A DNA stretch of 64,000 bases, from positions 16,929,504 to 16,993,503 of the forward strand of contig OZ038460.1 in NCBI GenBank assembly GCA_964036195.1, in the 5' to 3' direction. Shown here one piece after another: positions 191-63,877 of the stretch (its first letter is position 1; every line of letters begins with the position of its first letter). Below the pieces are notes generated by a model. The model saw nothing but the letters and a program-made list of their open reading frames with translations. It had not been told where the DNA came from and did no database searches. A program made the position numbers and the translations under genes. Source of the DNA: Sphaerolaimus hirsutus (Eukaryota > Nematoda > Chromadorea > Monhysterida > Sphaerolaimidae).

Positions 191-3100
191 CTGGGTGGGG
201 GGGGGTATGGTAGTATGGGTGTATACTCGGATGACATTACGCCGTACTTTTTTCGGGAGGAAACACTCCATCATGACGTGATCACTTTCGTCGCCATCAT
301 CATCTCTCGCCATCACGTCTTCCATAAGTTCTCGGCTGGCCGTCTGCCAGCCGAAGACATAACTCCTATCTGTTTGTAGAGTATCGTGTCTGCCGAGTAT
401 ACCGTGTTTGTTCTAATAGAAGGGCGGCTTAATATTTTTTAGTCAACTTTCTTACCGCCCTTCTATTGGAGACCCACCCTTCTATTAGGAGAAATACGGG
501 TGTTTGACCATCCGAAATACCGGTGGTTCCCTGTGTTTTGGTAATACTTAAATACTGGTATACTCGGCGGACCGCATAGTATTATACATATGTGCAGAAT
601 CCTACGATAATTTAATGAATAAAATCTTATGATAAATTTCGTAATAAAAGATTCCATAGCGAAAACGAAATATTATGATGAAAAACTATATAATTTTTGG
701 TCCATTATTCAGATGGGTTATGGTTACGTTAAAATACTAAAATAAGTGTGATGTCAGTCGAGTATAGATTGCCAATAAACAGTAGCCATTGGCGCCCTCG
801 GCGTTGGCGCCAGGCACACTTTTTTGAATAGCGCTTGGCGTCCGTTTTTTAGAATCCGTATCCGGCTGCCAGCAAGAAATATCAAACAATCTACCCCAGA
901 CAGCAAAAAAAGAAACAAAAACGCGAACGAACCAATTCCTCAGTGGGCACTTTCTGCCTCAAAATGTAGATTTTGATGAATTTCTCGATTTGCCCGTTGA
1001 ACTTCATCGTGGCGCAGTATAGAATGTAGATGCAAAACAGCACCAGGGCTTCGTACCATCGTATCATCTCGTCCAAGAACGAGATAACCACTATTGCCAA
1101 AGCGACCACGTAAAAGGTGACATCTCTGTGGGGGGGGGGGGGGGGTTGGGGTTGGTGTTGGAAAAGATTGATGGAAGAGTTGGGTTTAAGATTTTGAGAA
1201 AATATAAAAATATCGCTTTTATTTTTTTATATTTTTTCTGGCTTTTTTTCAGGGAGATTTTATTATATTTTGGTTTTATTTACTTTTGGCTTTCTCTTTT
1301 CAATTTTCAAACTACCGTATTTCCTCGAAACATCCCCCCTGTAAATACGCCCCTCAAAATGGCCACTATAAATTAATAAACCCCCCTCAAAATTTCCTCT
1401 CTGAAAAAATAAACCTCTCGGGGGTAATTCGAGGAAATACGGTATTCACAGATTTTTGTGATCTTCATAAATATTTACTCGAAATAACCCCGGCTAGTGA
1501 TGGAATGGCGCCATGGCGCTGGCGCCATTCGAGGGCGCCAAAGGGCGCCGCGCCATGGCGCCATTGGCGCTTGGCGCCCTTTTCCTGTGGTGCCCTTGGC
1601 GCCTGGCGCCCACATTCTGAAAGGCGCCATGGCGCCCTTGGCGCCCTTTTTCCGTGGCGCCCTTGGCGCCTGGCGCCCTGCTTTTAAAGGGCGCCAAAAA
1701 GGCGCCAGCAGGGTTTCAATGTGAGTGCTGTATAAATGGAAAAAAGATGAAAAACGCATTCATGGATGATCTGAATTCGCCAGAAATATGGACGAAGTGG
1801 TGTGAGTGGCTATAAATCTTTGGTGCAACGGTTCATCAGATGTGTCTGACAGATCAGAAGACGAGAATGATGGAACGTTGAACTTGCAAAAGGCCCCGTG
1901 GGTTTCATTTTCCGCACTAAGATATACCGTATTTCCTCGATTTACCCCCCCCCGCCTTGAATTAACCCCCCCTCGAAATACCCCCAGGTGTTTTTGGGCT
2001 GGGGAAAAATACCCCCCCCCTCGAAATACCCCCGTCTGGAATTATGTACATGATTTATGCAGTGTACATTATGCATACCTATATTGGTCGCAGTTTGCAT
2101 CGCAGCCACACATATACTAGTTTGTGTAGCGATGGACGTTGATATGTCCAAATATACCCTAGTTGGACACGTTGATTACCTGTTTTGTGTATATAAAAGC
2201 GTACTCTATACTATGAATTTCGTGATAATTTCTGACGAAAAAATACCCCCCCCCCCTCGAAAAAGCCCCCTCCCTCGAAATACCCCCCTCAAAATTTCCA
2301 CTCTGAAAAAATAAACCCTCTGGGGGTATTTCGAGGAAATACGGTAGGTGTATTCCGAGGGGAGGCTCCATTCTAGGCCGGGCTAATTCGAGGGTAACCA
2401 CTTTCCGGAAAGGGCACGAGTGTGGGCACACCTGAACAAGGGCCACCAGGTGAGTTCGAGCACGGTTTTGGAGAAGATGCAGCAGCAGGCCAGCACGCAC
2501 AGGATGTTGAATGTGGCGCTGCCTGTGCGTTGCAAATGGTTGGAGTATTTATGTGAACGGTTGTTGTTTAGTGGGTAAAAACAATTTTACGGGGATGGTC
2601 CGGCCGTAAAGTAAACCCGGCCGTAAAGTAGAGGGTGCTTCTTTAGGCCGGCCATCATTACGGCAGAGTTGTTAAAATTACTTAATTTTTTTCAAAGTAA
2701 ACGTAAACGTTGAGTATTTTATTTTTAATCACACCTGAATACAGAAAACGTAAAGTAAAAATTTTCTACTTTTACGCTGTGTAAAAGGTGAGTAAACGTA
2801 AACATCTGTAAATACTCATTTTCTGTACTCGCGTACTTCCAAAACGTACGCGAGTAACTGAGTACCGGTATTTTTTCGGGAGGAAACGTAAACGTATTTA
2901 CGCAGCACTCGAGTATACGTATTTATCGAGTAAACGTAAAAACGTTTGTACAACTATGCCTTACGGCCGATTTACTTTACGGCCGGGTTTACTTTACGGC
3001 CGGGTTTACTTTACGGCTGAGTTCTCGCCCAATTTTACATCAAAAATGGTTTGGCGGAAAACGGAAACGTAAAAATTGTTCGGCTGCCGGAAAACGGAAA

Positions 3101-6100
3101 GGTAACATTTTTTCAGCTACCGGAAAACGAAAGCGGAAAGGTAAAAAGAATTCTTCGGAAAAGCGGAAACGGAAAACGGAAATTTGACACCCATAGTGAG
3201 AGTACTGACTTTAATACAAATTTGCACATGAAAATAGCCAATCCCGAACCCCATCAACTGGATAAAACAGCACATTTGAAAAAAACGCACCGACAATAGT
3301 TCCTATACCCACGTTGTCGCTGCTGATGAAAACGCCAATAACGCTGGTGAAAAACTCTGGCGCCGAGCCGCCGGCCGCCATAAAAGTGGCGCCAGCCACA
3401 TCGTCCGATATTTGCAACTTTTCGGTGATCACGCTTAGCGACGGCACGAAGTACTCGTCGCAGACGATCGCCAGCGCCACGAACATGTACACCTGGGGGC
3501 AGTCCCAGACACTGTAAAATGCCCTGTAAAATGTCAAATGTCACGCAAAGTGTGAAAAGTCATGTAAAATGCCCTGCAAAATGACAACGTACGTTTGTCA
3601 TTTTGCAGGGCATTTTACACGACTTTACACACTTTGCGTGACATTTGACATTTTACAGGGCATTTTACAGTGTCTGGGATTGGCACCAGGCCGATGGCGT
3701 GGAAGGTTATGGCGCCGTGTTTGAGCTGCGCGGGGGGGGGGGGTATTTGAGTAGTGATTGAATGGATTGGCGCCATGGCGGCATCATTGGCCCTTGGGCA
3801 TCATTTTCTGTGGCGAATAGTGATGGGAACGCGCCAGAAAAAAGGCGCCGCAGCGCCGAAGCCATTTGAGGGCGCCAAAGTGCAGTCACCACTCCAGTGG
3901 CTTTATATTTACCTTGCACATGAGATTCATGCTAGAAGCGTGCAAGCGATTTTCATAAAGATGAAAAAATCATTGATGTAGCACGTTATATGTTAACATA
4001 TTCACAACAATATTTCATGTTTTTACAAAAATCGCATACTTTTATTGTCGTTGGCACGCTTCCAACGTAAGACATAAGTAAGAGTACAGACGCAGAGTAT
4101 CAAATCCGTCGAGTATAAGAAGTTTATGCAGGGAAATGCTTGATGCGAAATTCTAAACATTGCAGAACTGGCCGCACTTTACATCAATATACTCCTAAAC
4201 CCATCCCAAAATCCATCCCATTCAAAACTCATCCCATTTTCAATAAAAACTTTTTTCTCTTCAAAAATCCCATAAAATTCACCTGATACTTCGTAAAAAT
4301 ATCATCGGGAAACTGTTCGCTGCCGGCGATTTTCTCCTCACCGGTAACATTTTTGTTTTCTTCCTCCTCTTTTTTGCGCGCAATATCCGCACAATATCGC
4401 ATAACGGACGCTGATTGATTTTGTTGAGTAGGAGCCTGGATTTTTTGAGGGGAGTCGACTTTCTGGTGGATAAAATACCGTATTTCCTCGAAATACCACC
4501 CGGGGGGTGATTGTTTCATAGTGCTCCCGAGAGGGGGGGGGGGGTTAAACGAGGGGGGGTATTTCGAGGGGGGGATTTCGAGGAAATACGGTAGAGTGAA
4601 TTAGATTTGCGCAGGATACCGTATTTCTTCTAATTCTAAGAGCGCCGTTCTAATTTTTCGTGAACTTTTTACATAGGTACCTTTCGATTGGAGGTGCCGT
4701 TCTAGTGGACACTGTCATTCTATCTTCTCTCCAATTTTTTTCATACACTTTTTGACATACACATTTTTGGACAAGGGAAGTATTTAAACAAAACGCTCAG
4801 ACTTCTGTCACTTCTAATCAATTTTCTAAAATGCGTCCAAATCTTCAAACTGCGACACACACAACCTAAACACATCTCAGTCCATCAAACATCAATAAAA
4901 ACGGCGAAAAGATGATGATTTTACATCATTTACAAAAATGAACCCCCCCCACATACCTCTCTCTTAAATCTGTGCACCCTCCCCAAAGCCTCAGGTTCCC
5001 TCAGCCCCCCATCACTGACAAAACTGGCACCCCCCTCGAATACAGTCAGACCCATAATGACGCAGAGCAAAATGCCGCCGCATAGAAGCGCCCATCTTTG
5101 CCTAATGGCGCTGCGATGGCGGGCGTATTGGCGCCAGCGCCAGTGGTTGGCGTTGGTGTTGGCGCCGGCGCCAGGGCTGGTGGCAGTGTGAGGCAGCTGT
5201 GAAGTGGGGTGAAGGGTTTTAGGTAATAGTGATTTGGGATGTTTTTCAATTGTCCTTGGGATTTTTTTTTGTTTTGGGAGGTTTGAAAAGACCGAGAATA
5301 TTTCGGGATGGCTAAATATTTAGAACAATGATAATGCCTTTTTCGCGTCAAAACAAATTTGTACAATTGTAACAAAATTTTGAATTGCAACAAAATTCTA
5401 TTAAGTTTTTTTATGTGACCACAAAGCCCAACATTAATTTTTCTAGGAAATAAACGTTCAAGTATGAGGCCAAAACTACCGTAATACCTCGAAATACCCC
5501 CAGGGGGTTTATTTTTTCGCCAGCAATATTCGTGGGGGCGATAATTCGAGGAAGGCGGGTTATTCGAGGGGGGTCTATTATTTCGCCAGAAATTTTCGAA
5601 AATTTCCCATACTCAGACGTATAAATATCAAACAATAACATAGATGTAGATGTGTTTATAGTCATATATGACTGTATATACCGTATTACCTCGAAATACC
5701 CCCAGGGGGTTTATTATTTCGCCAGCAAAATTTGAGGGGGGGACAATTCGAGGGGGGGTTTATTCGAGGGGGGGGGTCTATTATTTCGCCAGAAATTTTC
5801 GGAAATTCCCCATACGCAGACGTAGAAAAATTGAACAATTACATAGATGTATATGTGTTTATAGGCATATATAACTGTATATACACAAAAACCCTGCCCT
5901 AACATCACTTTATCATCAGTTTTAACGTGTGTTCTGCATTGTACAGATCACAAACAGCGGTATTTGTCATGTACGTTCACGTTACACCCAATTTTAGGGG
6001 GGTATTTCGAGGGGGGGTTTATTATTTCCTCAGCCTAAATTTAGGGGGGGGGGTATTTCGAGAGGGGGGGTTAATTCAGGGGGGGGGGGGGTTAATTCGA

Positions 6101-7988: not shown

Positions 7989-8147
7989 GGTGCAGTTCCG
8001 CAAGTTGAGAAGTGAGACGTAAATTGGCAAAAGCGTAGTAAAATGAGTAGTGAGAAGTGAAATGGCACTTTTTTAACTTGACTCGCCTTTTTACTTCGCT
8101 TTTGCCGTTTGCTCTTTCACTTCTCCACTTGCGGCCCGGGCCACAGG
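7989..8147 (+). mobile_element. Introner-group MITE, GTGAAATGGCAAAAGCG interior
   Basis: Left end GGTGCAGTTCCGCAAGTTGAGAAG, right end ACTTCTCCACTTGCGGCCCGGG. Interior AGAAGTGAAATGGC / CTTCGCTTTTGCC inverted repeat. It abuts the next element at 8148. Confidence 0.6.
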
Positions 8148-8333
8148 GGCAGTCCGAGACCCTGTGATGTCAAGTGTCAAGTAAAATGTCAATCAAAAAA
8201 GAATTTATTACTCAATTTGCATGACAACTGACACTTAGCATGTGCAAATTGTTGCATGGCAATTGACAAATTTGTATGACATTTTACATGACATTTAACA
8301 CTTGACTTTACACTTGACACACAATTCCTGGTC
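8148..8333 (-). mobile_element. Introner-group MITE, TGTAAAATG interior
   Basis: GGGCAGTCCGAGACCCTGTG at the left and GACACACAATTCCTGG at the right, with repeated GTCAAGTGTCAAGTAAAATG / CATTTTACATGACATTTAAC. It is a diverged copy. No coding sequence flanks it. Confidence 0.5.
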
Positions 8334-11120: not shown

Positions 11121-11314
11121 CATCAGTTCAGTTCAGTGCACCCATCCCCAGCTGCAACCGGGGCAAGATTTCAAATCGTGTCAAGTGACTGAAAGTTACA
11201 AACTTTGCGCCTGGCGCCGGCAAAAAAGCAACTAATTTTGCAATAGTTTCCGCGCGAGTCATAATTCTTCCTACATTCTTTATAAACGTCTTTTCGCTTG
11301 ACATCTCGCGTCCA

Positions 11315-11517
11315 GGTACCAATCCCAGACCCTGTAAAGTGTCAAAAGTCACGCAAAATGTCAAAAGTCACGCAAAATGTCAAAAGTCACCTAAAATGCC
11401 CTGGAAAATGGCAAACGTGTTTGCCATTTCCCAGGGCATTTTACATGATTTTTGACACTTTGCACGACACTTGACATTTCACATGACATTTGACATTTGA
11501 CAAGGTCTGTGACTGCG
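11315..11517 (+). mobile_element. Introner-group MITE, TGTAAAATG interior
   Basis: Left end GGTACCAATCCCAGACCCTG preceded by CCA, right end CAAGGTCTGTGACTGCGCCCGG. The acceptor-like CAG of the right end is mutated to CGG, so a spliced product is not expected. Confidence 0.65.
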
Positions 11518-12504
11518 CCCGGCGGTCACTCATGGGGGAAAAGCGGCCTGCCGCAAGCCGGTCGACTGCACCGGCGCCTCGCACGTGATGCGATCAGAGC
11601 GTCAATTTGCGGAGTTGCGGACATTTTGAGACGCTCGTTTGCGCGACGTTTTTGAGAAAGAGTTTTTTTTAAAGTGGATTTGATGGGTTAATTGGAAATT
11701 TTAGATGTGTGAGGTGCCTGTGTGTATGCGATAAATAATTTATGGCTTGCTCGCGGCGAGGTTTCTTTATAGCATCTCTTAAATTTATTTTAGGTTATAA
11801 ATAAATTGTCTTAAACTGCGATTACTGCTCGACGTGAAATTCAAATGTAAAATTCCACAGCTTACTTGATTACATGGAAGTAGATATTTATAAATATATG
11901 CATTAATTTTGCCCAAAACACATTTCCACGTTCATCTAGCTGTGACCGATTACGCTGAGTTTTGGACACAATTAACATATTGATTAATATATTGTACATG
12001 CAAAACTGTCCATCATCCACTTTCATGCAATCAGTTTTGCAGTGGAATTTTACGTCGAGTTATAATTGCAGCTTTAGGTCTAAAACTGCAGCTTCAAAAA
12101 AAATGTAGCACCATTTCCGCAGCTCGTCAAGTGACAAGTAGCATGTCACGCGCAAACCTGTCACACGCCAGTTTTGCCAATAATCGCAGCAAAAAACTTG
12201 ATTGATGATCGACTCATTTTGCACTTGCGTTGCAGAAACGCGTCTTAATTTATCCGCTATGCAAAACTGAGTCGGACAACCCTCTGGGCGGCCCGCATGC
12301 GAGCGCTGGGGGCAAAGAAAAGTGGTCCGCACCGAGTCCCCACTGGGCACGCATCCAGCCAATGGGCGGAAAATCGACAAATTCGCAAATTTAAACCCGG
12401 AATATCGACGCATTTTAGCCGCATCGACCGTCAAAATCACCCCAAAAACCATTTTAAATCCGCGCATCAACCCCTATTTACCCCAACGAAGTCACATACA
12501 GGGG

Positions 12505-12688
12505 GCTGTCCCGGATCCCGAAAAATGCCCTGTAAAATGTCAAATGTCACACAAATGTCAAGTGTGAAAAGTCATGTAAAATGCCCCGCAAAATGGCAAC
12601 TCGGTTGCCATTTTGCAGGGCATTTTACATGACTTTTGACACTTTGCGTGACATTGAACATTTTACAGGGTCCGGGACTGGCACCAGG
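12505..12688 (-). mobile_element. Introner-group MITE, TGTAAAATG interior
   Basis: In minus orientation it starts GGTGCCAGTCCCGGACCCTG after GACCT and ends GATCCGGGACAGCCCCCTG. The right-end AG is changed. It lies in a GC-rich stretch of unclear nature. Confidence 0.7.
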
Positions 12689-13667: not shown

Positions 13668-13840
13668 CGGCTCCCCTGTAAAATGTTAAATGTCATGCAA
13701 AGTGTCAAAAGTCATGTGAAATGCCCTGCAAAATGGCAACCCGGTTGCCATTTTGCAGGGCATTTTACATGACTTTTGACACTTTGCATGACATTTGACA
13801 TTTTACAGGGCTTTTTACAGGGTCTATGACTGCTCCCAGG
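13668..13840 (+). mobile_element. Introner-group MITE, TGTAAAATG interior, left end truncated
   Basis: The interior is a near-perfect inverted repeat around GGCAACCCGGTTGCC. The right end is GGGTCTATGACTGCTCCCAGG. The left end stops at CTCCCCTGTAAAATG, lacking the GGTGCCA end. Confidence 0.65.
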
Positions 13841-15183
13841 TCTCACGCAAACACATCACGCATCTCTTCACAATCCCACAAAACGTCACACGACCACGCA
13901 AAAAAAGCCGCGCGACTGCAACTTCTGTCGCGCGGCCGCATTGAAATGCAGTGCACTGCACAAGTCTGCGTTATTTCAAGCCGCCGCACGTGCGGAATGC
14001 GAAACGCGTCAAGGGGGGGGGGCAGCGCACTGCGCAGACGCATGGGCCCTCACGTCGCTGCAGATAACTCCTGCCGCTGGGGGGTATGTGTGGGGTTGGG
14101 TGTGCGAGAATGGGGGGTTGTGAATGATGGTTGACTTTTTTTGAGAGAGATTTCAGTGTCTTGGAGTATGGTGTATAGAATTTTACAATTGACGAGTAAA
14201 TATCGATTTAAAAAGTGAATATTTTGTTTATTTACTAAGCCTACAATTTAGGAGTCCCATTATTTAAGTTGGAAAGGTCAACTCCCAATTGTTAAAGTTA
14301 ACGTGACGCTCACTAGTCACCACTCGCTTAGGGTCAAAGTAATGTTCTCAAAAAAATTCCTTTACTTATACAGGTAAATATGCTAATGGTTATTGAAAGA
14401 GACAGGTTGGGCAATTATTTTCCTGCACAAAATTTAAAATATTGCCACTAAAAAGCGTCTAATAACTTGGAAGTAAGAAATGTGAACTTCCGATTTTTTT
14501 TACTTCCTTCCCGGACAAACCTTCGCATTCCAACTTTTTGGAATTTTTCGGGGGACTTTTTCGAGGCGGGGCGGGGTGTAGTTATTCGAGGAGGGTATTT
14601 TTCATCAGAATTTTCAGTAAAATGTTTGATTAATTGACTGCACAAATTGGGTAAGTTTGGAAACATAAATCATTTGTAGGACCATAAAATTCACAATTCA
14701 AGCAGCGAAATCAATGTTAGTGGACTCTAACTGCAATATAATACATAAAACGTATTTTTGTAAATGTGAAATGTTGTGAAATGTTTTCTACCCATAAAGT
14801 GGGGGGACTTATTCGAGGGTGGACTTATTGGAGGATATACGATATATTTGCTTATATTACACCTGTTTTCTGATGCAAAGAGAAAAACATCGGTGCATAA
14901 ATTCAAATAGATGGCTATGGGTACATATGCCAGCAATTCATTTCGCCAACAAATCAATTGAACTTTTTCAAAAGATTTGGAACATATATCGATGGTCGCT
15001 CGTGGAACTGTGGCGCAACATTTTTGGAAGACGTTTCTGTTTAAGCCAGAACAACATTGCGAAAGATGTAATTTATGAGACTTTTAGAAACGGTTCTGAG
15101 AAATGTGCGCTCTTTTAGAGGTTTTTCGGAAACTGGAACGGATATCTGGTACCCGGGGGCTAATCCTGAACCCTGAAAATATA

Positions 15184-15919: not shown

Positions 15920-17220
15920 CTGAATGTAGTGGTTCAGAAACTTGCCATGCATGTGAACTATCAATTTAACCATATTTTCATAGATTTTTGACGAAATAAT
16001 GTGTAAAATCGATGAAAAAAGGACAGCACTCCGCAATAGAAAAGCCGGCGCTGGAAAAGCAATAGTAAAATAAAAAAGCACCATTTAGTAGCGTTTACAG
16101 CTTGGCAAAAAATTAAAAGTGAAGCGTAAAATAAGACTATTACAAACATTTGCAGTCAGACACGTGATTTTCTAATTTGTAAATACAAAAGGATGTACAA
16201 AAAACTAATTTGTACAAAAAACAAATGAGTCAATGTAAAGTAATTTTCCCATCGACTCATTTTACGTTGCATGGAATGGCCAACAGAAAATTATTCAACG
16301 ATTTACGATTCCAATTCAATGATTTTACGTTGGCTCATTTTTAATCGCAGGTATTTACATTTTTCAATCAAATTGAGAGATCACTTATCTTAACGTAAAT
16401 ATATCTGTAAATATATCTCTGTCGCTATGTACTACAATACAATTAATATTTGTTCAAAAAATCAGCTGAAAAACAAATAAAGTTATTTTACACGTGTTGA
16501 TGTTTTACATATCAATAGTTTCAATTCAAGTATCGCGCTTAACGAAATGGAAACAAATTTTACATGCTTTTTATGACTTTTTCGGGTGGGCGTGTACTTT
16601 GAATGAAATAAAAAGTGATAACAATGTGGAAAAACTTTCAAATATTTGACATGAATAGTTGTGCGAATATCCATAACAGGCGTTTGCGCTTTCGGACATC
16701 TCATAATTCTCCAATGATGAAGCGCCAAAAATGCCAAAGAAATCTCCTTAAGCACTGTGGCGATTTTCAGGCTTGTGGCGCCAGCGCCAGGCGCCAGCCT
16801 ACTATGGCGCCAAGTTGAACGGAATTTGAAACTGAGCGCGAAATTGAACAAACCAAAACTAACAGGGCCGGCCACACTGCAATTGATTCAATGTGCCTCA
16901 CATATTTACTATTTAATTTTAATCGAAATTTCGGAAACTCATAAATCAGCATTGAACGAATTCGAGTTTACCAGAATGGGTTACCTTTTTTATCCCCATT
17001 AATTGTAGTTGACGGCACCTCATTCCGGTAAACTGAAATGCGTTCAAAGTTGATTTCTCAGTTATCAAATATTTCGGTTGAAAACTAGCATAAATGTAAA
17101 TAGAGCCAATAGAAAAGCAAACGATGCATTGCATTGGGCAACTACAAAAGCGCACCGACTAATCGAAATTTGGTGGCGGATATTTTTTACTTTCTTCTGT
17201 CTGAATTTTTGTTGCACACG
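15920..17220. other. AT-rich sequence, no gene seen
   Basis: A small GGCGCC cluster at 16779-16815 is the only recognisable item. Short open frames here lack splice signals or motifs. Confidence 0.35.
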
Positions 17221-17397
17221 CTTGGTGCCAATCCCAGACTCTGCAAAAAGTTTCAAAAGTCGTGTAAAATGCCCTGTAAAATGGCAAACGTACGTTGGCA
17301 TTTTCAAGAGCATTTTACATTATTTTTGACACTTTGCATGACATTTGAAATTTAACAGCAAATTAACAGGATAAATATACAGGGTCTGGATGGGACT
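17221..17397 (+). mobile_element. Introner-group MITE, TGTAAAATG interior
   Basis: Left end GGTGCCAATCCCAGACTCTG, right end GGGTCTGGATGGGACTGCCCC with TTGG instead of CAGG. A tandem ACAGCAAATTAACAGG disturbs the right arm. Confidence 0.65.
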
Positions 17398-17719
17398 GCC
17401 CCTTGGCCTGACAAATTCTTTTGTCACAAAAACGTAATGAAGGTATGATGGAAAAGGTTTTACAGATTAGCATGTCTGAAACAGCCAAATTTAATCCATA
17501 CAAAAATCCATAAAACTGATCAGTTCCACTAATCCACAGTGGCATAGACACACAGGGTTGGAATAAATGGTTAAAACAAAATCCACTAATAGAAATGCGG
17601 TAGCTTACATCTTCCTTCACATGTAAGTATGGTCAGGTATAGATAAATACCATCCTATTTATGAAGAATACTGAAACACATACGCACATTTTATGGATTT
17701 TTATAGAGCCGAGAGTACA

Positions 17720-24090: not shown

Positions 24091-24638
24091 AGCGCACAAT
24101 TTCAAGGTTTGCTCGCGTATCCGGTGCCTTACATTCTCCTTAAATACTAATTGAATTTGGCGCCTGGCAGGAGGCTTCGTTGAAATGCGACCTAACTAGT
24201 GTTAAGGGTAGCGTATTTTTTGTGTGCGTCAAATACGCTTTTGATTGGGGTCGCTTTCGGGGGAGATGGAAATCGATGTGAGGGAAGGGAAGTTTGGTGG
24301 GTATTCATTTTTTTTTGGAAAGTCAAATTTTTCGCGGAATTTAATAAACGCACCAGTGTCAGCGACAAAATTTGATTGACCCGGCGGGATTTCTTCCGGG
24401 CAGCTCGGTTCATAGTATTTTTTTAAATTTTGAAGTGTCGTAGAATTCTCAAACAATAGAATGAAAAAGACGGCTTCCGTTTTCAAATTTGCAACAGAAA
24501 CATACACAGCACTTGAAACTGAAAATTGTTACCGAAACTAAAATGTGACAAACAATAAGCTGCCATTTAGTATATCTAATAAATTTTTGATGGTCACACA
24601 AGCTGTTGACTGAAATTCAATTCGGTCCCAATGATTTA

Positions 24639-25769
24639 AACACCTTCCCGGTCACGTCCGGCACCCATTTTTTGATTTTACTTCTCACATCCTATCCCCA
24701 GTTCTAGGGCACCCCAGAGGCTGAAACTTGGGGGAGATATTGGCGCAACCCCCCTCTACTTCGCACAAATTTGGGGGGTCGCGGCGACCCCTCTCAGCGT
24801 GGGCCGCCCTAAGTGCAAACATTTTTTTCGGCTTTTTTGGTGTCCCACAGCAGGTCCGGCACCCGCTGATTTCTGAGCTGTGGGAGGGGTATAAATCTAA
24901 AATTTTGGAGATGTGTTACCTACACCACTCCCCTACTATACACTATTCAATAATGTGAAATAAATGCGAAAAATTTCTCAAAGATTCGCTTATTCTCTAA
25001 AAAAACACCACTCCCCAATAGATGGATGACATAAAATTCACTTTTTGGAACTTTTTTATTAGACACTTGAAGAGATGGTTTACGATACTTTAAAGGGAAC
25101 GGTTTGATGTTTAAAGTTTTGTAAAGAACCATACTTCTAAAATGCCTGCATTACAAAATTTACTTAGGGCGAATTTTATGACATCATAATGACATCATTG
25201 CAGGAACAAAAATTTACAAAATTTACACTTTGAAATTCCCCCCAAGTAAATTTTGCAATGCAGGCATTTTAGAGGTATGGTTCTTTACGTAACTTTAAAC
25301 ATCAAACCCTTCCCTTTAAAGTATCGTAAACCATCTCTTCAAGTGTCTAATAAAAAAGTTCCAAAAAGTTAATTTTTTGTCATCCATCTATTGAGGAGTG
25401 GTGTTTTTTTAGAGAATAAGCGAATTTTTGAGAAATTTTTCACATAAATCTCACATTTTTGAATAGTGTACAGTAGGGGAGTGGTGTTGGTAACACATCC
25501 CGAAAATTTACGATTTATACACCTCCCACAGCTCAAAAATCAGCGGGTGCCGGACCTGCTGTGGGACACCAAAAAAGCCAAAGAAAATTTTGCACTTAGG
25601 GCGACCCACCCTGAGAGGGGTCGCAGCGACCCCCCCAAGTCATGCGAAGTAGAGGGGGGTTGCGCCAATATCTCCCCCAAGTTTCTGCCTCTGGGGCGCC
25701 CTAGAACTGGGGATAGGATGTAAGACGTAAAATCAAAAAATGGGTGCCGGACGTGACCGGGAAGGTGTT
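24639..25769. mobile_element. 1.13-kb long-palindrome element, TA target duplication (copy 1)
   Basis: Starts AACACCTTCCCGGTCACGTC and ends GACGTGACCGGGAAGGTGTT, flanked on both sides by TA. The arms of more than 500 bp are near-complete inverted repeats of each other, so the element is a foldback. Each arm carries an 80-odd-codon open frame with VPDLLWDTKKA and EVEGGCANISPKF. The second copy is at 62166-63299. Confidence 0.85.
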
Positions 25770-25994
25770 TACGTCTGTATGTTTCAGGCATATATTTTTC
25801 AGCCCTACAGTAAACAATTAAATGTTTATTTGCTTAAAATGATTCGGGTGCAAATATTCGGTTTGTCATTTCATGGGCATGTAAAAATGAGTTGCTCGTT
25901 ATTCCACACCCATTTGACCCCCCCCCCCCACTGAAACCGCTGCTGAAAAACACAATTTGTTTGTGGTGGTTGCTTGATTTAGAAGCGAAATATT

Positions 25995-31489: not shown

Positions 31490-33130
31490 ACAGTGCAATC
31501 AGTTGTAGCTGGGAGATGACATGCAGTGGTTTAAAATGTTGATACCCCATTTAAATTCAACCGATGAACTTTCAGCTAAGCATGGGGATAGGTTGAATAC
31601 AAGTTCAAGTGTTAGGTATTTACATTTGGGCCCCAGAGACATTTCCCCACTCTTTAGTTGTAGTGGTCAGTCAATATTTTTCCCAATTTCCAAGTATTGA
31701 GTTTAGATAAAAAAGGTTTTGTTCTGCACTTCTGCTTTTTGTTGTGTTTTGACATAAACTGGAATGAGCTCATAAAATGTTCCCCACTTTCTGTATCCAG
31801 AAATCCCCTCTAACCAGAATCATGCCAGAATACAACAGAATTGCATAAAACAAGGGTAGCACTCAAATGTTCCATTGACATTCAAAAATTAGAAACCTGG
31901 AAAGGGGGCCCCTACAAGGGCAATTTTTGAATGGCCAGGGCTACCCTCCATTGCACACAGCAGGGAATACTCCCATCATCTGTAAAATGTCATGCAAAGT
32001 GTCAAACGTCATGTAAAATGCCCTGGAAAATGTGAAACTACTGGTAAAATATGACAATAAAATTTGATATCTTACAGGACATTTTACACGACTTGTTTCT
32101 ACTCATGTTGAGTAGAAAATCCATAGCTAGCATTTAGTGGTTTATGAAAGTTGTTGAAAAATACTGCATATTAATTTACATCTATACCTGATTTCACTGT
32201 AAATACATACATATTGACATCAAATAGCATTTATTCAGCCTTTAAACTGACGATATTTTGATGAAATCACGCAAAATTATCTTCCTGTGCTCGAAAAACA
32301 TAAAATCTACGTAAATATATTTAACGTGGAAAAATTAGTTCAGAAAAGTGTAACACCCTGTTCAAACTCCGACTTTCATCTTTAAGCTCACTTACAAATG
32401 CATACATATTTATTACCTAACTTTATCTTGACCACATGCGTCTAGCGATGGAAAAACATGTCGATGATTAATAAGTGGTTAGAAAACACCACAGGGCTCT
32501 TTTTCAAGTGGTATGTATACTTCATGGATTCCATTACAATTGAAGCAAGGCGTTTTTGACACATTCTTTCAGATGTTAACAATCATTGAGATGAGACATA
32601 TTTACGGTATTTGTATCAAACCCGATCACCGATATTCAGCTTTTCGAACACTGGAACTTTTTACGGTGTCTTCCGAGTAGACACAGATCACAAATCAATG
32701 TATCGTAATTCCTCGAAACACCCCCACCCCCGAATTACCCCCCTCAATATTTGCACCCTGAACAAAATAAACACAGTTGGGTTATTTAGAGGAAACTCGG
32801 TAGAATAACAGAGACAGCACAGAACGTTTACTTCACACAGCGCAGTTCCGGTCAATTTCAAATACAGTGTATTTCCGCGTATTTCAGATCGTCCAAAATA
32901 ATACACGATAATTTATGGCGCCATTTTAAAACATTGGCGCCACACTGGCGCTGGCGCCATTGCAAGCGCCTGGAAGTCCATAGAAGATGGGCGGGCTAGA
33001 GTTAAGCCGGATGAAAGAACGACGCCATCATAGTAACATGGAAGTGCGGCAGACTTGTTTGAGGGGTTGGCAGAATTATACAGTGTCCGTCAAGTTTCAA
33101 GAAATATTCGAATTGCCCCCTAGGAATAGC
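31490..33130. other. Mostly unassigned sequence
   Basis: A truncated TGTAAAATG-type inverted repeat at about 31980-32100 and a short diverged type A copy at about 32698-32803. No gene seen. Confidence 0.35.
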
Positions 33131-41402: not shown

Positions 41403-41461
41403 TTGAAGATGTAAATATTTTACCGTATTTCCTGGAAGTATCCCCCCTCGAAATACCCCCC

Positions 41462-41688
41462 GGTGCCAGTTATTGCAAAGTGAGAAGTGAGAAGTGAAAT
41501 GGCAAAGGCGAAGTAAAAACGCAAAGGCGAAATGAAATGGCAAGTAAAATGGCAAAAAATGGAAATTACTTTTTATTTTTTTTACTTCGCTTTTGCCAAT
41601 TCAGTTGCCGTTTCACTTGGCCTTTGCGCTTTTACTTCGCCTTTGCCATTTCACTTCTCACTTCTCATTTTGCGGAACTGGCCCCAGG
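41462..41688 (+). mobile_element. Introner-group MITE (GAAGTGAAATGGC interior) inside a type A MITE
   Basis: Left GGTGCCAGTTATTGCAAAG, right TTTGCGGAACTGGCCCCAGG. The flanks are two halves of a long-form type A element (CTCGAAATACCCCC before, CTGGAATAATGTAAATAG after), so this is a clean insertion into a repeat. Confidence 0.85.
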
Positions 41689-54332: not shown

Positions 54333-55978
54333 CAGGGTTGGCAAAATCTCAGAAAATAAAATAAAATAAAATTAAAAAATGGAAAATTTAAGAATAAAAT
54401 AAAATAACATAAAATGGAAAATTAAATAAAAATTGTATAAAAATTTCAGAATTTTTGTTAATTTTTTGTAAAATTGTATAAAAAATCGAATTTTTGTAAA
54501 ATTGTATAAAAATTCATATTTTTTGTAAACATTTTATTGTGTTGCTCGAGTTTCTACCTGTCTATTTTGGGAACTGGGTGCTGTACTAAGCCTGTGAAGT
54601 GTTAAATGTCATGTAAAATGTCATGCAAAGTGTCAATTGTCATGACAAATGTAAAGTAAAGTGTGAATTGTCATGACAAATATAAGTTAAAGTGTCAAGT
54701 TTTAAGCACATTGTATCTTTGTATCAAGCACAAATTTTGTGTTTTGTATCCAAATCTTGTTGTTATTTTTGTATCCAAATCATATGCGAACATCAGATTT
54801 TGATACAAAATGATTTGGATACAAAAACATAAAATTTGGATACAGAAATATTTGATGATTTGAATAAACAATTGAGGCGTCCAATTCTAAAAGTCGACAA
54901 GTCCAAATATGAAAATTTCGAGTTAGGCCCTGAAATGTCATCTGGGGCTACGACCGCACATTTTTCATCATTTTCCATAAATTTTTTGACCTCACATGCC
55001 CATATGGCATAGTGCCAAATTTGACATTTTTGGGGAAAAATGCAAAAAATTTGGGCAAGATGTCGACAAGTCCACTTAGTTTTGGGCTAAAAGTCGACAA
55101 GTCCATCCTGCGCATCCTTTTTTTATGGGAAAAAAACGCAAGAAATGTGATAAGTCCACTATGGGCACCGATTTCTAAAAGTCGAGAAGCGCATAAATTT
55201 CCCATAAGGGAGGCGCAACGCGGGCGGGAACAAAAATGTTCTCGCGTGCAAGAGGGCGACAAGTCCATTTCCCTCCCAAAAACAGTTTTGCTCTGACCGA
55301 ATGGAATTTTATGGACACCCCATTTTTCACATATACGTTGAGATTTGGGGCTGAAAATTTGACACTTTATTGTCAACATATGGAACTTAATGAAAAGCAT
55401 GAGAGAGCCAAATTGGACACGCACCACGGGCCTGGAATTGTGTTTGAAACTTAAAATGCGATTTACTCAAAATCACATTTTGTGGACTTGTCGACTTTTA
55501 GAATTAGACGCCTCAATTTATACTTTGCATGGCATTCATAATGACAATTGACGCTTTGCTTGACATTTGACACTTTACATTTGTCATGACAATTGACACT
55601 TTGCATGACATTTTACACCCTGCACACTTCAGTAGTTGTTTTACCAAAAATGCAAACCATTGTTATCAATAATTGTAACCTTACACTTTTAACTAGCTAA
55701 CAATACCTACTGCATGCAGCGTTTTGCAAAGTAATGAAAAAAATTTCACTTGAAAGTTTTTCATGTTTAGGTCTAATCATAACATTTTGTTGGCCTTGCA
55801 TGCAAGATTCGATTTTTTGTAAAAATTTTGTAAAATGGTTCCATTTTATAATTTTATTAACATTTTGGAATAAAATAAAATAAAATGAAATGAAACAAGA
55901 ATAGAATTAAAATAAAATACATTTTTATACAATTTTCATACAATTTGTATACAAATGATTTTTATAAAACCAACCCTG
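54333..55978. mobile_element. hAT element with perfect TSD TACATGAC and two nested insertions
   Basis: Starts CAGGGTTGGCAAAATCTCAG, ends AAAACCAACCCTG, TACATGAC on both sides. It sits in a long-form type A MITE. Inside is a TGTCATGCAAAGTGTCAATTG inverted repeat (about 54590-55620), itself split by 54873-55516. Confidence 0.92.
54873..55516. mobile_element. Element with ~33-bp inverted ends, GTCGACAAGTCCA motif
   Basis: Left TTGAGGCGTCCAATTCTAAA then AGTCGACAAGTCCA, right TGGACTTGTCGACTTTTAGA then ATTAGACGCCTCAA. Repeated AAAGTCGACAAGTCCA inside. A long minus-strand open frame (54948-55427) spans it without recognisable domain. Confidence 0.8.
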
Positions 55979-56735: not shown

Positions 56736-57017
56736 GTGATTGACGCAAGTCGTTGTGCGTGCATGCACTAATACACAATAATTGTGTGAAAAGGATGTTT
56801 CTTGAACACATCATGGCAGATTCACGGAGGCTATCAAATTAAAATCAATTAAAACATTCCCAATGCAGCTTTATGTGTGAAATCTCTTAATGAAGTCTGT
56901 GAAATGTGTGAAAAATACAAACCACGTAGCAAATTGCTGAAATTTTTTTGGTTTATAAATATTTGATCTGAGTCGACCCTGTTTTCAAAATCACAAGTAA
57001 AAATCAGTTAAAACCCA

Positions 57018-57242
57018 GGTGCCAGCTCTGCAAAATGAGAAGTGAGAAGTGAAATGGCAAAAGCGAAGTAAGAGCGCATAGGCGAAGTGGAATAACAAGT
57101 GAAACGGCAAAAGCGAAGAGAAATTACTTACTTTTTTTATTATGCTTTTGCCAATTCACTTGCCGTTTCACTTCACCTTTGCACTTTTACTTTGCCTTTG
57201 CCATTTCACTTCTCACTTCTCATTTTACGGAACTGGCCCCAG
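57018..57242 (+). mobile_element. Introner-group MITE (GAAGTGAAATGGC interior) ending at a coding exon
   Basis: Left GGTGCCAGCTCTGCAAAATG after CCCA, right TTTTACGGAACTGGCCCCAG. The final AG is the acceptor of the RRP12-like exon. The sequence before the left end is not clearly coding, so it may be the 3' part of a larger intron. Confidence 0.8.
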
Positions 57243-57407
57243 GTCAATATCATTCCTATGGTTGAGGAGTTGAGGAGTTTGATTCCGAAACCCGTTATCA
57301 GCAGGTTTTTGGGTTTTTTGAAAATCGCATTTGAAAATTTGACATTGGCCCACGATGGCATGCTTCAAGTGACAACGCTTGCCCGAAACTTTTTGAAAAG
57401 TTCATGA
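57243..57407 (+). CDS. RRP12-like exon (HEAT-repeat segment)
   Basis: Reads VNIIPMVEELRSLIPKPVIS, then RFLGFLKIAFENLTLAHDG and MLQ. The middle aligns with the C-terminal HEAT region of RRP12 (human: VVKSALGFIKVAVTVMDVAH), a 40S pre-ribosome export and processing factor. The exon may end at CAA|GTGACA (57368); the remaining residues to the TGA at 57405 would then be intron. Its acceptor is the right end of a mobile element. No upstream or downstream exon of the gene was found, so it may be a gene fragment. The family call rests on one 20-residue match. Confidence 0.45.
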   Translation, partial: VNIIPMVEELRSLIPKPVISRFLGFLKIAFENLTLAHDGMLQVTTLARNFLKSS

Positions 57408-60974: not shown

Positions 60975-63877
60975 GTCAGTTTTTTGTCACTGCATTTTCT
61001 TAGAAATGGTGAGACTTTTTAAAATATTTCACAATGCATGCAATGCAACATGTAAATAATTAAATTTTAGTATGTAAATCTATTTACCTTCCTTCAGATT
61101 GATACTCGGTGCTGGAGAGAAGATAATTGACCGGTGATTTAGTGCTTGTCACAGCTGAACTGAAATACCGTATTTCTATGAAATACCCCCGCCAGGGGGT
61201 TTATTTTTTCAGAGTGGAAATTTTGAGGGGGTATTTCGAGGGGGGCTTATTCTAGGGGGTTTATTATTTCGTCAGAAATTTTCGTGAAATTCATAATAAG
61301 GAACGCGCTTTTACATATACGTGGCGGACATCACACTTAAATAGTACGAAAACCTACCCTAACCCATCATCTGAAAAATGAACCAAAAATTATACGGTTT
61401 TTACATCATAATATTTCGTTTTTACTATGGCAGACAAAATGGCGATACATAGAGTTCATTCAACATTTGATGTTAAAAAAACACAAAATGAATGGACCAA
61501 AGCCAATAAATCGCAGCGTACATTTACCGAATTACCTCGAATTATCCCCCCTTGAATTGACCCCCCCTCGAATTAAAAGCCCTCTCAAAATGGGCTGGGG
61601 AAATAATAAACCCCCTCGAAATACCCCCCCCCCCGGAATGATGTACATCATGTATGCAATGTACATGACGTATTTATTACTGCTAATTTGCATTGCAGCT
61701 ACACATAGACTACCGTATTTCCTCGAAATACCCCCCCCCCCTTGAAATACCCCCCCCCCTCGTTTGACCCCCCCCCCCCTCTCGGGACCACTATGAAACA
61801 ATCACCCCCCCTCGAAATACCCCCCCCCAAATTGAGTGTAAAGGGAACGTACATGACAATAACTGTAGTTTGTGTTCTGTGTACTGCAGAACACACGGTA
61901 AAACAATGTCGGTATCACGTTAGAACAGTGTACATACCAACTACATACCAATATTAGTCTACAGAACCTTATAAATGGCGGTTTTTGTTGCATTTTTCGA
62001 CGTCTGCGTACGTTTCAGACAACAATTTCGTACTTTGTTTTCAAAAATTTTCTTGTGAAATAATAACCCCCCCCTCGTTTACCCCCCCCCCTCTCGGGAC
62101 CACTATGAAACAATCACCCCCCGGGGGGTATTTCGAGGAAATACGGTAGTTTGTGTAGCTATCTAAACACCTTCCCGGTCACGTCCGGCAGCCATTTTTT
62201 GATGTTACTTCTTATATCCTATCCCCAGTTCTAGAGTGCCCCAGAGGCTGAAACTTGGGGGAGATATTGGCACAACCCCCCTCTACTTCGCATGAATTGG
62301 GGGGGTCGCGGCGACCCCTCTCAGGGTGGGTCGCGCTAAGTGCAAAATTTTTTGTGGCTTTTTTGGTGTCCCACAGCAGGTCCGGCACCCGCTGATTTCT
62401 GAGCTGTGGGAGGGGTATAAATCTAAAATTTTGGGGATGTGTTACCAACACCACTCCCCTACTATACACTATTCGATAATGTGAAAAATTTCTCAAAAAT
62501 TTGCTTATTCTCTAAAAAAACGCCACTCCCCAATAGATGGATGACAAAAAATTCACTTTTCTGAACTTTTTTATTAGACACTTGAAGAGCTGGTTTACGA
62601 TACTTTAATGTGAATGGTTTGATGTTTAAAGTTATGTAAAGAACCATCCCTCTAAAATGCCTGCATTGCAAAATTTACTTGGGGGGAATTTCAAAGTGAA
62701 AATTTTGTAAATTTTTGTTCCTGCAATTTTTGTTCCTGCAATGATGTCATTATGATGTCATAAAATTCGCCCTAAGTAAATTTTGCAATGCAGGCATTTT
62801 AGAGGTATGGTTCTTTACATAACTTTAAACATCAAACCCTTCTCTTTAAAGTATTGTAAACCAGCTCGTCAAGTGTCTAATAAAAAAGTTCCAAAAAGTG
62901 AATTTTTTGTCATCCATCTATTGGGGAGTGGTGTTTTTTTAGAGAATGAGCGAATTTTTGAGAAATTTTTCACATCAATCTCACATAATTGAATAGTGTA
63001 TAGTAGGGGAGTGGTGTTGGTAACACATCCCCAAAATTTTAGATTTATACCCCTCCCACAGGTCAGAAATCAGCGGGTGCCGGACCTGCTGTGGGACACC
63101 AAAAAAGCCACAAAAAAATTTGCAGTTAAGCCGACCCACCCTGAGAGTGGTCGCCGCGACCCCCACAATTCATGCGAAGTAGAGGGGGGTTGCGCCAATA
63201 TACCCCCCAAGTTTCAGCCTCGGGGGCGCCGTAGAACTGGGGATAGGATATAAGAAGTAAAATCAAAAAATGGCTGCCGGACGTGACCGGGAAGGTGTTT
63301 ACATTTTTATGTCCAAATATATCCTGCTTGGACACATTTATTACCTGTTTTGGCTACGCAAATGCTTACTATTCACTACGATCCTTACGAAAATTTCTGA
63401 CGAAATAATAAACCCCACCCCCTTGAATAAGCCCCCCATTTTGCTGGCGAAATAATAAACCCCCATTGCGGTATTTCGAGGTAATACGGTATTTATTTTT
63501 TGTGCATTTTGCACAATTCCAGCACTTTGTGTACCTTCTATTGGAGATGCCCTTCTATTGGAAACCTGCAGTTCAATTAGAAGTTGCCATCAGTTCACTC
63601 AGATCTGGGGGTATTTGGAAGGAGGTGTCAGGGAGGTTAATATATGAGGATATACGGTAACATCGACAGATGCCTGTCACACTAATAAATTTATTTATCA
63701 TCTCTCCTGGTCCTGGCGTTAATGATGATATCTTCGGTGGCGCCTACCATTCGTTGTATAAGAAAAATAGCATAATCCATATTGATTGCAATAGTAACAT
63801 TCAATTCTATGGTTTATTTGCTGCTTCACTCTTTATCCGTGAATTTTTATTCTACCTGGGACACAGAGCTGCTCATA
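60841..63877 (+). CDS. Alkylglycerol monooxygenase-like fatty acid hydroxylase, partial gene (3 exons)
   Basis: Spliced span on the plus strand, incomplete at both ends. AGMO is an integral membrane, di-iron, tetrahydropterin-dependent enzyme that cleaves ether lipids. The exons show a helix (YLMVTCFSLEVLISLIGK), then SLREAVLSVTNNCAAYVICR and LILGAGEKIID. The last exon has a helix leading to REFLFYLGHRAAH, the first His box (HRxxH) of the fatty acid hydroxylase superfamily. Order and spacing follow human AGMO (LELVVSWILKG; DDALTSISAGVLSRLP; VDFGYYWFHRMAH). The two following His boxes and the first exons are not seen. AGMO is the best fit; another member of the superfamily is possible. Confidence 0.65.
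61098..61133 (+). CDS. AGMO-like exon b, 36-nt micro-exon
   Basis: Acceptor TTACCTTCCTTCAG, then (R)LILGAGEKIID and CG before GTGATT. Phase 2 on both sides joins the neighbouring exons. Matches the SRLPSLFFRSIEL region of AGMO in position rather than strongly in sequence. Confidence 0.55.
61166..62147. repeat. Cluster of type A MITEs
   Basis: Two or more overlapping copies (TACCGTATTTCTATGAAATA at 61168; ATTACCTCGAATTATCCCCC at about 61530; GAGGAAATACGGTA at 62134-62147) with a TATACGTGGCGGACATC fragment at 61316. Confidence 0.55.
62166..63299. mobile_element. 1.13-kb long-palindrome element, TA target duplication (copy 2)
   Basis: AACACCTTCCCGGTCACGTC to GACGTGACCGGGAAGGTGTT, TA on each side. 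Near-complete inverted repeat. It is inserted in a long-form type A MITE: GTTTGTGTAGCTATC before and ATTTTTATGTCCAAATATAT after are contiguous in other copies. It lies in an intron of the AGMO-like gene. Confidence 0.88.
63480..63660. repeat. Type B-like MITE
   Basis: TACGGTATTTATTTTTTGTG to GAGGATATACGGTA, with CCTTCTATTGGA repeats. Immediately upstream of the AGMO-like exon c. Confidence 0.5.
63771..63877 (+). CDS. AGMO-like exon c, first His box
   Basis: Reads IIHIDCNSNIQFYGLFAAS then LFIREFLFYLGHRAAH, followed by a good donor A|GTGAGT. The 5' end is inferred from phase (AATAG acceptor, weak pyrimidine tract). The frame is open back to 63670, so the real start could be earlier. An intermediate exon may be missing. 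Confidence 0.65.

Follow-up and report, generated by a model that had tools for sequence, protein, structure and literature searches.

How new spliceosomal introns originate, and by what route a transposon turns into an introner, are open questions, and both are raised by a single locus in the window analysed here (64,000 nt in total). The 194-nt intron of an NCKX-type exchanger gene at 3493-3686 of the minus strand is one whole copy of a hairpin MITE, and we asked whether the element itself could have made the intron.

The interrupted NCKX-type gene

The earlier note had described this gene as interrupted by 194 nt that form an inverted repeat, and both statements hold: the two flanking exons fall within the Pfam family Na_Ca_ex, and the element consists of two arms of 96 nt each (3492-3587 and 3595-3690), 95% complementary and separated by a spacer of 7 nt. 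The range of 3493..3725 given there is right for the intron at 3493-3686, but its end at 3725 takes in the 39-nt exon 3687-3725. As RNA the exact intron would form a near-perfect hairpin (-150.3 kcal/mol); for the 194-nt stretch offset by a single base (3494-3687) the folding energy is -153.5, compared with -46.9 ± 4.4 for 200 shuffled sequences (z -24), none of which equalled it. That the element family is repeated in the window was also borne out, with four strong and four weaker relatives besides the NCKX copy (Table 1). For two of the strong ones the similarity search itself delimited narrower stretches, 12501-12670 and 17247-17358.

Table 1. Features of the NCKX-type locus and copies of the element family in the window
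Feature	Position	Strand	Remarks
Putative introner, entire 194-nt intron GTGCCA...CCCCCAG	3493..3686	-	
Left TSD copy CTG, final codon of upstream exon; GT donor next	3687..3689	-	
Right TSD copy, reads CAG; putative 3' splice site	3493..3495	-	
Left terminal inverted repeat GTGCCAATCCCAGACACTG, opening with the putative GT donor	3668..3686	-	
Right terminal inverted repeat; minus-strand end ...GTCTGGGACTGCCCC, inward reading GGGGCAGTCCCAGAC	3496..3514	-	
Upstream NCKX exon, 39 nt	3687..3725	-	Pfam Na_Ca_ex
Downstream NCKX exon, ends ...GIGTIV	3291..3492	-	Pfam Na_Ca_ex
More distal upstream NCKX exon	4283..4462	-	borders by eye
Following downstream NCKX exon	2432..2522	-	borders by eye
Family copy	11309..11520	-	strong relative
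Family copy, right end first, ends approximate	12501..12688	+	strong relative
Family copy, one end altered	13674..13841	-	strong relative
Family copy, more degenerate, ends approximate	17220..17400	-	strong relative
Weaker family relative	near 8146-8319		
Weaker family relative	near 31980-32094		
Weaker family relative	near 54597-54681		
Weaker family relative	near 55524-55617		

The intron lies between a codon CTG (Leu) and a codon GTG (Val), and there is only element sequence between the two exons. Its retention in the transcript would put the reading frame out, since 194 leaves a remainder of 2 on division by 3, and would bring in a stop codon as well. The joined exons, in turn, align to Na_Ca_ex without any length difference (residues 9-80 to profile positions 1-72, E 3e-16). 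The presumed pre-insertion site, GGC CTG GTG, matches the CCWGG target of the element family; the ends of the element are the ends of the intron, the target-site duplication (TSD) and the CCWGG target sit exactly at the exon borders, and the codons are restored on excision. This coincidence of target site and borders supports the proposal of the earlier note that the intron is new and was made by a MITE. The left TSD copy reads CTG but the right copy reads CAG, probably through a change of one base in the duplication, and the sequence is best read as a probable insertion at CTG whose right TSD is now CAG, which would make it a GT-AG intron. A long run of C lies at 3726-3745 (minus strand), a short way ahead of the CAG acceptor that belongs to the exon preceding the element.

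Copies, ends and target site of the element family

There are 2,241 exact copies of the left end GGTGCCARTCCCAGACCCTGT in the 348-Mb assembly, in which the reversed control pattern has 0 occurrences; the viral contigs searched contained no exact left-end copy. For closer study we sampled 39 of 40 scored places (the window copy being excluded), 30 loci on C1 found by their right ends and taken in order of location, and 20 more found by their left ends; L059 and L070 were left out, their left ends not being recognisable, and the duplicates L013, L042, L054 and L056 do not enter the coding-flank and alignment counts. The left arm starts GTGCCAATCCCAGACCCTG and the right arm ends CAGGGTCTGGGACTGCCCC. 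An alignment of 60 elements of 150-215 nt gave a consensus of 195 nt, right CWG included, from which L072 (13.5%), L068 (29.6%) and L073 (31.7%) stand apart. Among the 39 genome copies the likeness stops only a few bases short of either border. The family is one of similar introns, alike up to both putative splice borders, and includes exonic insertions that carry a TSD and keep the coding frame when removed.

Of the first 100 left ends listed on C1, which were compared by hand, 86 have a CWG directly before them. Where both ends of a C1 copy are exact, the two flanking trinucleotides are equal in 25 of 30 cases (Fisher p 4e-4): left and right read CTG/CTG in 15 copies, CAG/CAG in 10, CTG/CAG in 4 and CAG/CTG in 1. 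The matching CWG on both sides is a target-site duplication. Lengths of 2, 4 and 5 bp were rejected and 3 bp fits best, because the starting G of the left arm aligns with the last base of the right arm, and because the position that follows the right TSD is variable. Over 64 loci a C stands before the CWG in 38 and a G after it in 59, and a GT donor is present in 67 of 68 loci.

These features recall the NuwaI group of PHIS (PIF/Harbinger-like) transposons, which are found in animals only and have a CWG TSD and terminal inverted repeats (TIRs) of 12-61 bp usually starting with GGG (PMC4482050). The family studied here has the CWG duplication of a NuwaI (PHIS) MITE. Its right end GGGGCAGTCCC begins as NuwaI repeats usually do; the left end GTGCCAATCCC has GTG instead. 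Introns are not mentioned in the available part of that account (PMC4482050). In a profile search of the genome we found 163 matches to the Harbinger-type transposase family DDE_Tnp_4 (e.g., C1:20514088-20514720), and the scores of many are almost the same, as a recent burst would explain. One of these copies, its true ends uncertain, was compared with the element over 2.4 kb and gave a BLAST match of 10 bases only. An autonomous partner bearing the ends of the element was not found, and the same comparison led us to reject the idea that an interruption of about 190 nt in the frame of the Harbinger transposase is itself an introner. At C1:30745337-30745507 and C1:30980503-30980673 two left ends face each other, so that these structures have two left arms.

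Insertions in coding exons and a possible route to the intron

The earlier note had suggested searching the genome for introns made of the element alone. Unrelated conserved genes are indeed interrupted by the same element at positions that preserve the frame. When GT...CWG is removed, continuous conserved proteins result (NCKX, SLC6, PAQR, CNOT9, arginyl-tRNA synthetase and others). Twenty peptides, chosen by eye and in sense orientation, were submitted to Pfam, 19 of them joined across the site and one (L068) taken solely from the right exon. Family matches were obtained for 16 (7 of 10 and 9 of 10 in two sets), and L011, L026, L041 and L058 had no Pfam match. As sense peptides alone were submitted, these matches say nothing on orientation. 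The border falls well inside the match in 11 of the 16, namely in NCKX, a receptor of nicotinic type, SLC6, PAQR, an amino-acid transporter, a 7TM receptor, arginyl-tRNA synthetase, an E1 dehydrogenase (a match below Pfam's own cut-off), an SLC23-type permease, CNOT9 and an MSP domain, and L037 with its leucine-rich repeats could be added. It lies at the edge of the match in L028 and outside it in L043, L068 and L077; the matches of L066 and L068 are below Pfam's cut-off. For CNOT9, residues 1-107 align to profile positions 87-193 (E 5e-55), for SLC6 residues 7-84 to 1-78 and for PAQR residues 14-101 to 71-158. Judging by their sequences, L022 is presumably NDUFS6, L011 a mitochondrial peptidase, L025 a collagen and L041 an NHL protein. 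The gene of nicotinic-receptor type (L016) has a second introner copy that precedes the main element by about 110-330 bases, which by eye reads CAG^GTGCCACTC...CCCCCAG (^ marking a border) and whose removal gives WRP^DVLLYN.

Orientation and frame were addressed by a codon-usage test on 75-nt flanks of 64 loci, on both strands and with leave-one-out training. Both flanks appeared coding at 23 loci, of which 13 were sense and in frame, 1 sense and out of frame, 2 antisense and in frame, and 7 discordant in strand. Sense insertions were thus in frame in 13 of 14 cases against one third expected (p 6e-6), and thresholds of 2 and 4 gave 14 and 13 sense loci in frame, 1 and 1 out of frame, and 2 and 2 antisense. 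At the other 41 loci the two flanks did not both look clearly coding, so that many copies are non-exonic or beyond judging. Of the antisense pair, L015 is in frame and counts against the introner model. In the other, L047, which we take to be a CTR9-like gene, the right end reads GTGGC in place of GGGGC, so that the sequence in the sense of the gene is CAG^GTGGCA...CACCAG^G, with the borders of a canonical intron; this change suggests that a GT was needed.

We consider it highly probable, taking the explanation as a whole, that a non-autonomous MITE with the hallmarks of the NuwaI/PHIS type inserts at CWG, mostly within CCWGG, duplicates the CWG and acts as an introner. The structure of the element, its target, the TSD, the copy number and the restored conserved frames are read directly from the DNA. 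From these we infer that the element is spliced out of RNA. In sense orientation, with the left end first, its own first bases GT would serve as the donor and the right copy of the CWG as the acceptor, and the right arm would supply a C-rich stretch (CTGCCCC) and a branch region of the type TTTTACAG. Since the removal of GT...CWG rebuilds the codons present before insertion, an insertion can be nearly harmless. A CAG target would give a GT-AG intron at once, and a CTG target a GT-TG intron that would have to be tolerated and that a single T-to-A substitution in its right TSD could convert to GT-AG. It was probably a G-to-T change at the second position of one terminal repeat (GGG becoming GTG) that turned the family into an introner. 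The route would then be legible base by base, the GTG-for-GGG repeat giving the donor and the duplicated target the acceptor. We regard the donor CTG^GTGCCA as weak by the usual consensus, which counts against the model. The near-perfect hairpin would set the donor beside the acceptor and may offset both the weak donor and a TG acceptor; it could also hinder splicing instead of helping it.

The closest known systems include the introners of Gozashti et al. (2022; PMC9860276), which show signs of DNA transposition and carry one splice site while the other comes from the TSD; those of Chrysochromulina, for example, carry the 5' site, co-opt the 3' site and have 4-bp TSDs and no TIRs. Our family is likewise an intron-making element with one splice site carried and one borrowed from the TSD, but it differs in its 3-bp CWG duplication, its TIRs, its full-length hairpin, its animal host and a putative acceptor, AG or TG, that depends on the target base. 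Rare GC and GA donors are reported for those introners, and TG acceptors are not mentioned in the available text (PMC9860276). The introner elements of the dinoflagellate Amoebophrya have direct repeats at their borders, inverted repeats capable of forming hairpins, and non-canonical borders (PMC7789003); as far as that account is available, their borders and repeats are very diverse, whereas here there is one family of one design with GT in nearly all loci. PIF/Harbinger elements have also been listed, in a source available in part, among those seen in recently gained fungal introns. In the open-licence literature that we searched there was no report of an introner of NuwaI type.

Putative TG acceptors and alternative explanations

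Where the target is CTG, the putative acceptor is TG and not AG. Such copies are not exceptional: exact right ends followed by G are about equally common with CTG (CTGG, 631) and with CAG (CAGG, 578). Among 28 C1 loci with CTGG at the right and a recognisable left end, the left trinucleotide is CTG in 25 and CAG in 3 (L048, L060, L076). Twenty left ends with CTG had CTG at the right in 10 cases, CAG in 3 and another or unclear sequence in 7, in a sample that skipped loci already taken by their right ends and three near neighbours and is therefore biased against CTG. The 14 exonic CTG/CTG copies examined would, if retained, bring an in-frame stop in 13 cases and a frame shift in one (L074). GT-TG splicing at the TSD would be the simplest reading of these copies. 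We lean towards the view that the W of the CWG target sets the acceptor, that about half of the introner insertions would be born as GT-TG introns, and that the spliceosome of this animal, helped by the hairpin, would remove hundreds of them, in essential genes too, some being later tuned to GT-AG by one base.

Several other explanations have to be weighed against this. That the exonic CTG/CTG copies are unspliced, being broken alleles, pseudogenes or recent insertions, and that the CAG-ended copies alone are introns, would fit with TG being a rare acceptor and with the other introns of the same genes, which end in AG in the few examined by eye; the receptor paralogues L062 and L063, both CTG/CTG, also show no sign of purifying selection over 107 codons (3 non-synonymous differences, 1 synonymous). 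However, CTG/CTG elements split CNOT9 (L074, C1:10595770-10596265) and arginyl-tRNA synthetase (L065, C1:8232976-8233457), each of which occurs at a single place in the assembly, with matches to the two exon pieces that flank the element and no second match elsewhere. The exonic CTG/CTG elements, L068 apart, have diverged from the consensus by 3.5-10%, about as much as the CAG-ended ones (3-9%). The transporter paralogues L061 and L064, moreover, carry a CTG/CTG element at the same site, and while the elements are 89% identical, the flanks differ over 120 codons at 7 synonymous and 0 non-synonymous positions, so that both genes seem to have been kept working since their duplication with the element in place. 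(Codon counts for L037/L042 and L012/L013 are omitted, as the phase of those introns had been ignored.) Taken together, we judge it unlikely that these copies stay in the mRNA. It is doubtful, too, and slightly more so, that they are removed by canonical GT-AG splicing elsewhere, with residues gained or lost. An AG upstream of the border that leaves 18 nt offers an in-frame GT-AG alternative adding six residues in 3 of the 14 (L016, L061, L064), the next downstream AG is in frame in 6 of the 14 (L041, L062, L063, L065, L067, L074), and GTAAAA donors were noticed by eye inside the left arm. In the other 11, in contrast, the AG closest to the border on its upstream side leaves 17, 19, 20 or 32 nt and is out of frame with the border donor, and the downstream sites would delete 5-20 residues; several insertions interrupt motifs such as GL^GNVWRFPY of SLC6, which we presume unlikely to tolerate changes.

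The NCKX element might instead have landed in, or replaced, an older intron without creating one, and the probable existence of copies outside exons, given the 41 of 64 loci that lack a coding signal on both flanks, is compatible with this. Yet the element takes up the whole space from exon to exon, TSD and CCWGG stand exactly on the borders with the codons restored, and the same border pattern recurs in unrelated genes, all of which makes an older intron very improbable. Precise excision from somatic DNA in the manner of ciliate IESs would account for the exact restoration of one TSD copy and for both states of W being equally workable. On that explanation orientation should not matter, but sense outnumber antisense insertions by 14 to 2, and the antisense L047 has gained a GT. 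We know of no DNA excision system of the IES type in animals, and this explanation appears to us the most far-fetched of those considered.

TG acceptors have precedents. In Micromonas, introners of the IE-B and IE-D types with GT-TG sites have been described, with 25 and 6 members (31) respectively (PMC3879977), and they resemble the CTG/CTG copies in this respect. They occur in a green alga, vary greatly in length (up to 6,494 nt) and prefer phase 2, and neither a CWG duplication like that of our family nor a two-state acceptor like its putative one is mentioned in the available part of that paper (PMC3879977). TG is also used as an acceptor in human U2-type introns, with alternative sites in 36 genes (PMC2374985); that report, as far as it is available, says nothing of an origin from transposons. 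In the open-licence literature searched we met no report, for any animal, of an acceptor whose two states depend on the target base. Because the target may be CAG or CTG, the family offers a natural experiment on AG and TG acceptors in similar introns of one animal genome. In the unbiased C1 pairs a bias from T to A in the right TSD fell short of significance (4 against 1, p 0.38), and the excess of such changes in the other copies is explained by their having been chosen for similarity to the NCKX copy.

The L062 gene, a 7TM receptor like L063, has Pfam matches to Srx/Srv. These families are best known from nematodes. The 120 COX1 matches listed are mostly insects; the best named ones among them, also insects, stand at about 65-67% and the best unnamed one at 89%, which points to an animal, perhaps a protostome.

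Other inverted repeats were noticed in the window. At 57013-57243 and about 41460-41687 lies a second hairpin family of the same design with a different inner sequence, its ends being CCAG^GTGCCAG... and ...GGCCCCAG^G, with CCAGG on both sides at 57013-57243; this may be another NuwaI family of introner type. The long inverted-repeat regions at 24637-25771 and 62161-63304, about 1.1 kb each, have the end sequence TAAACACCTTCCCGGTCACGTCCGGCA in common and probably belong to one larger family of foldback elements.
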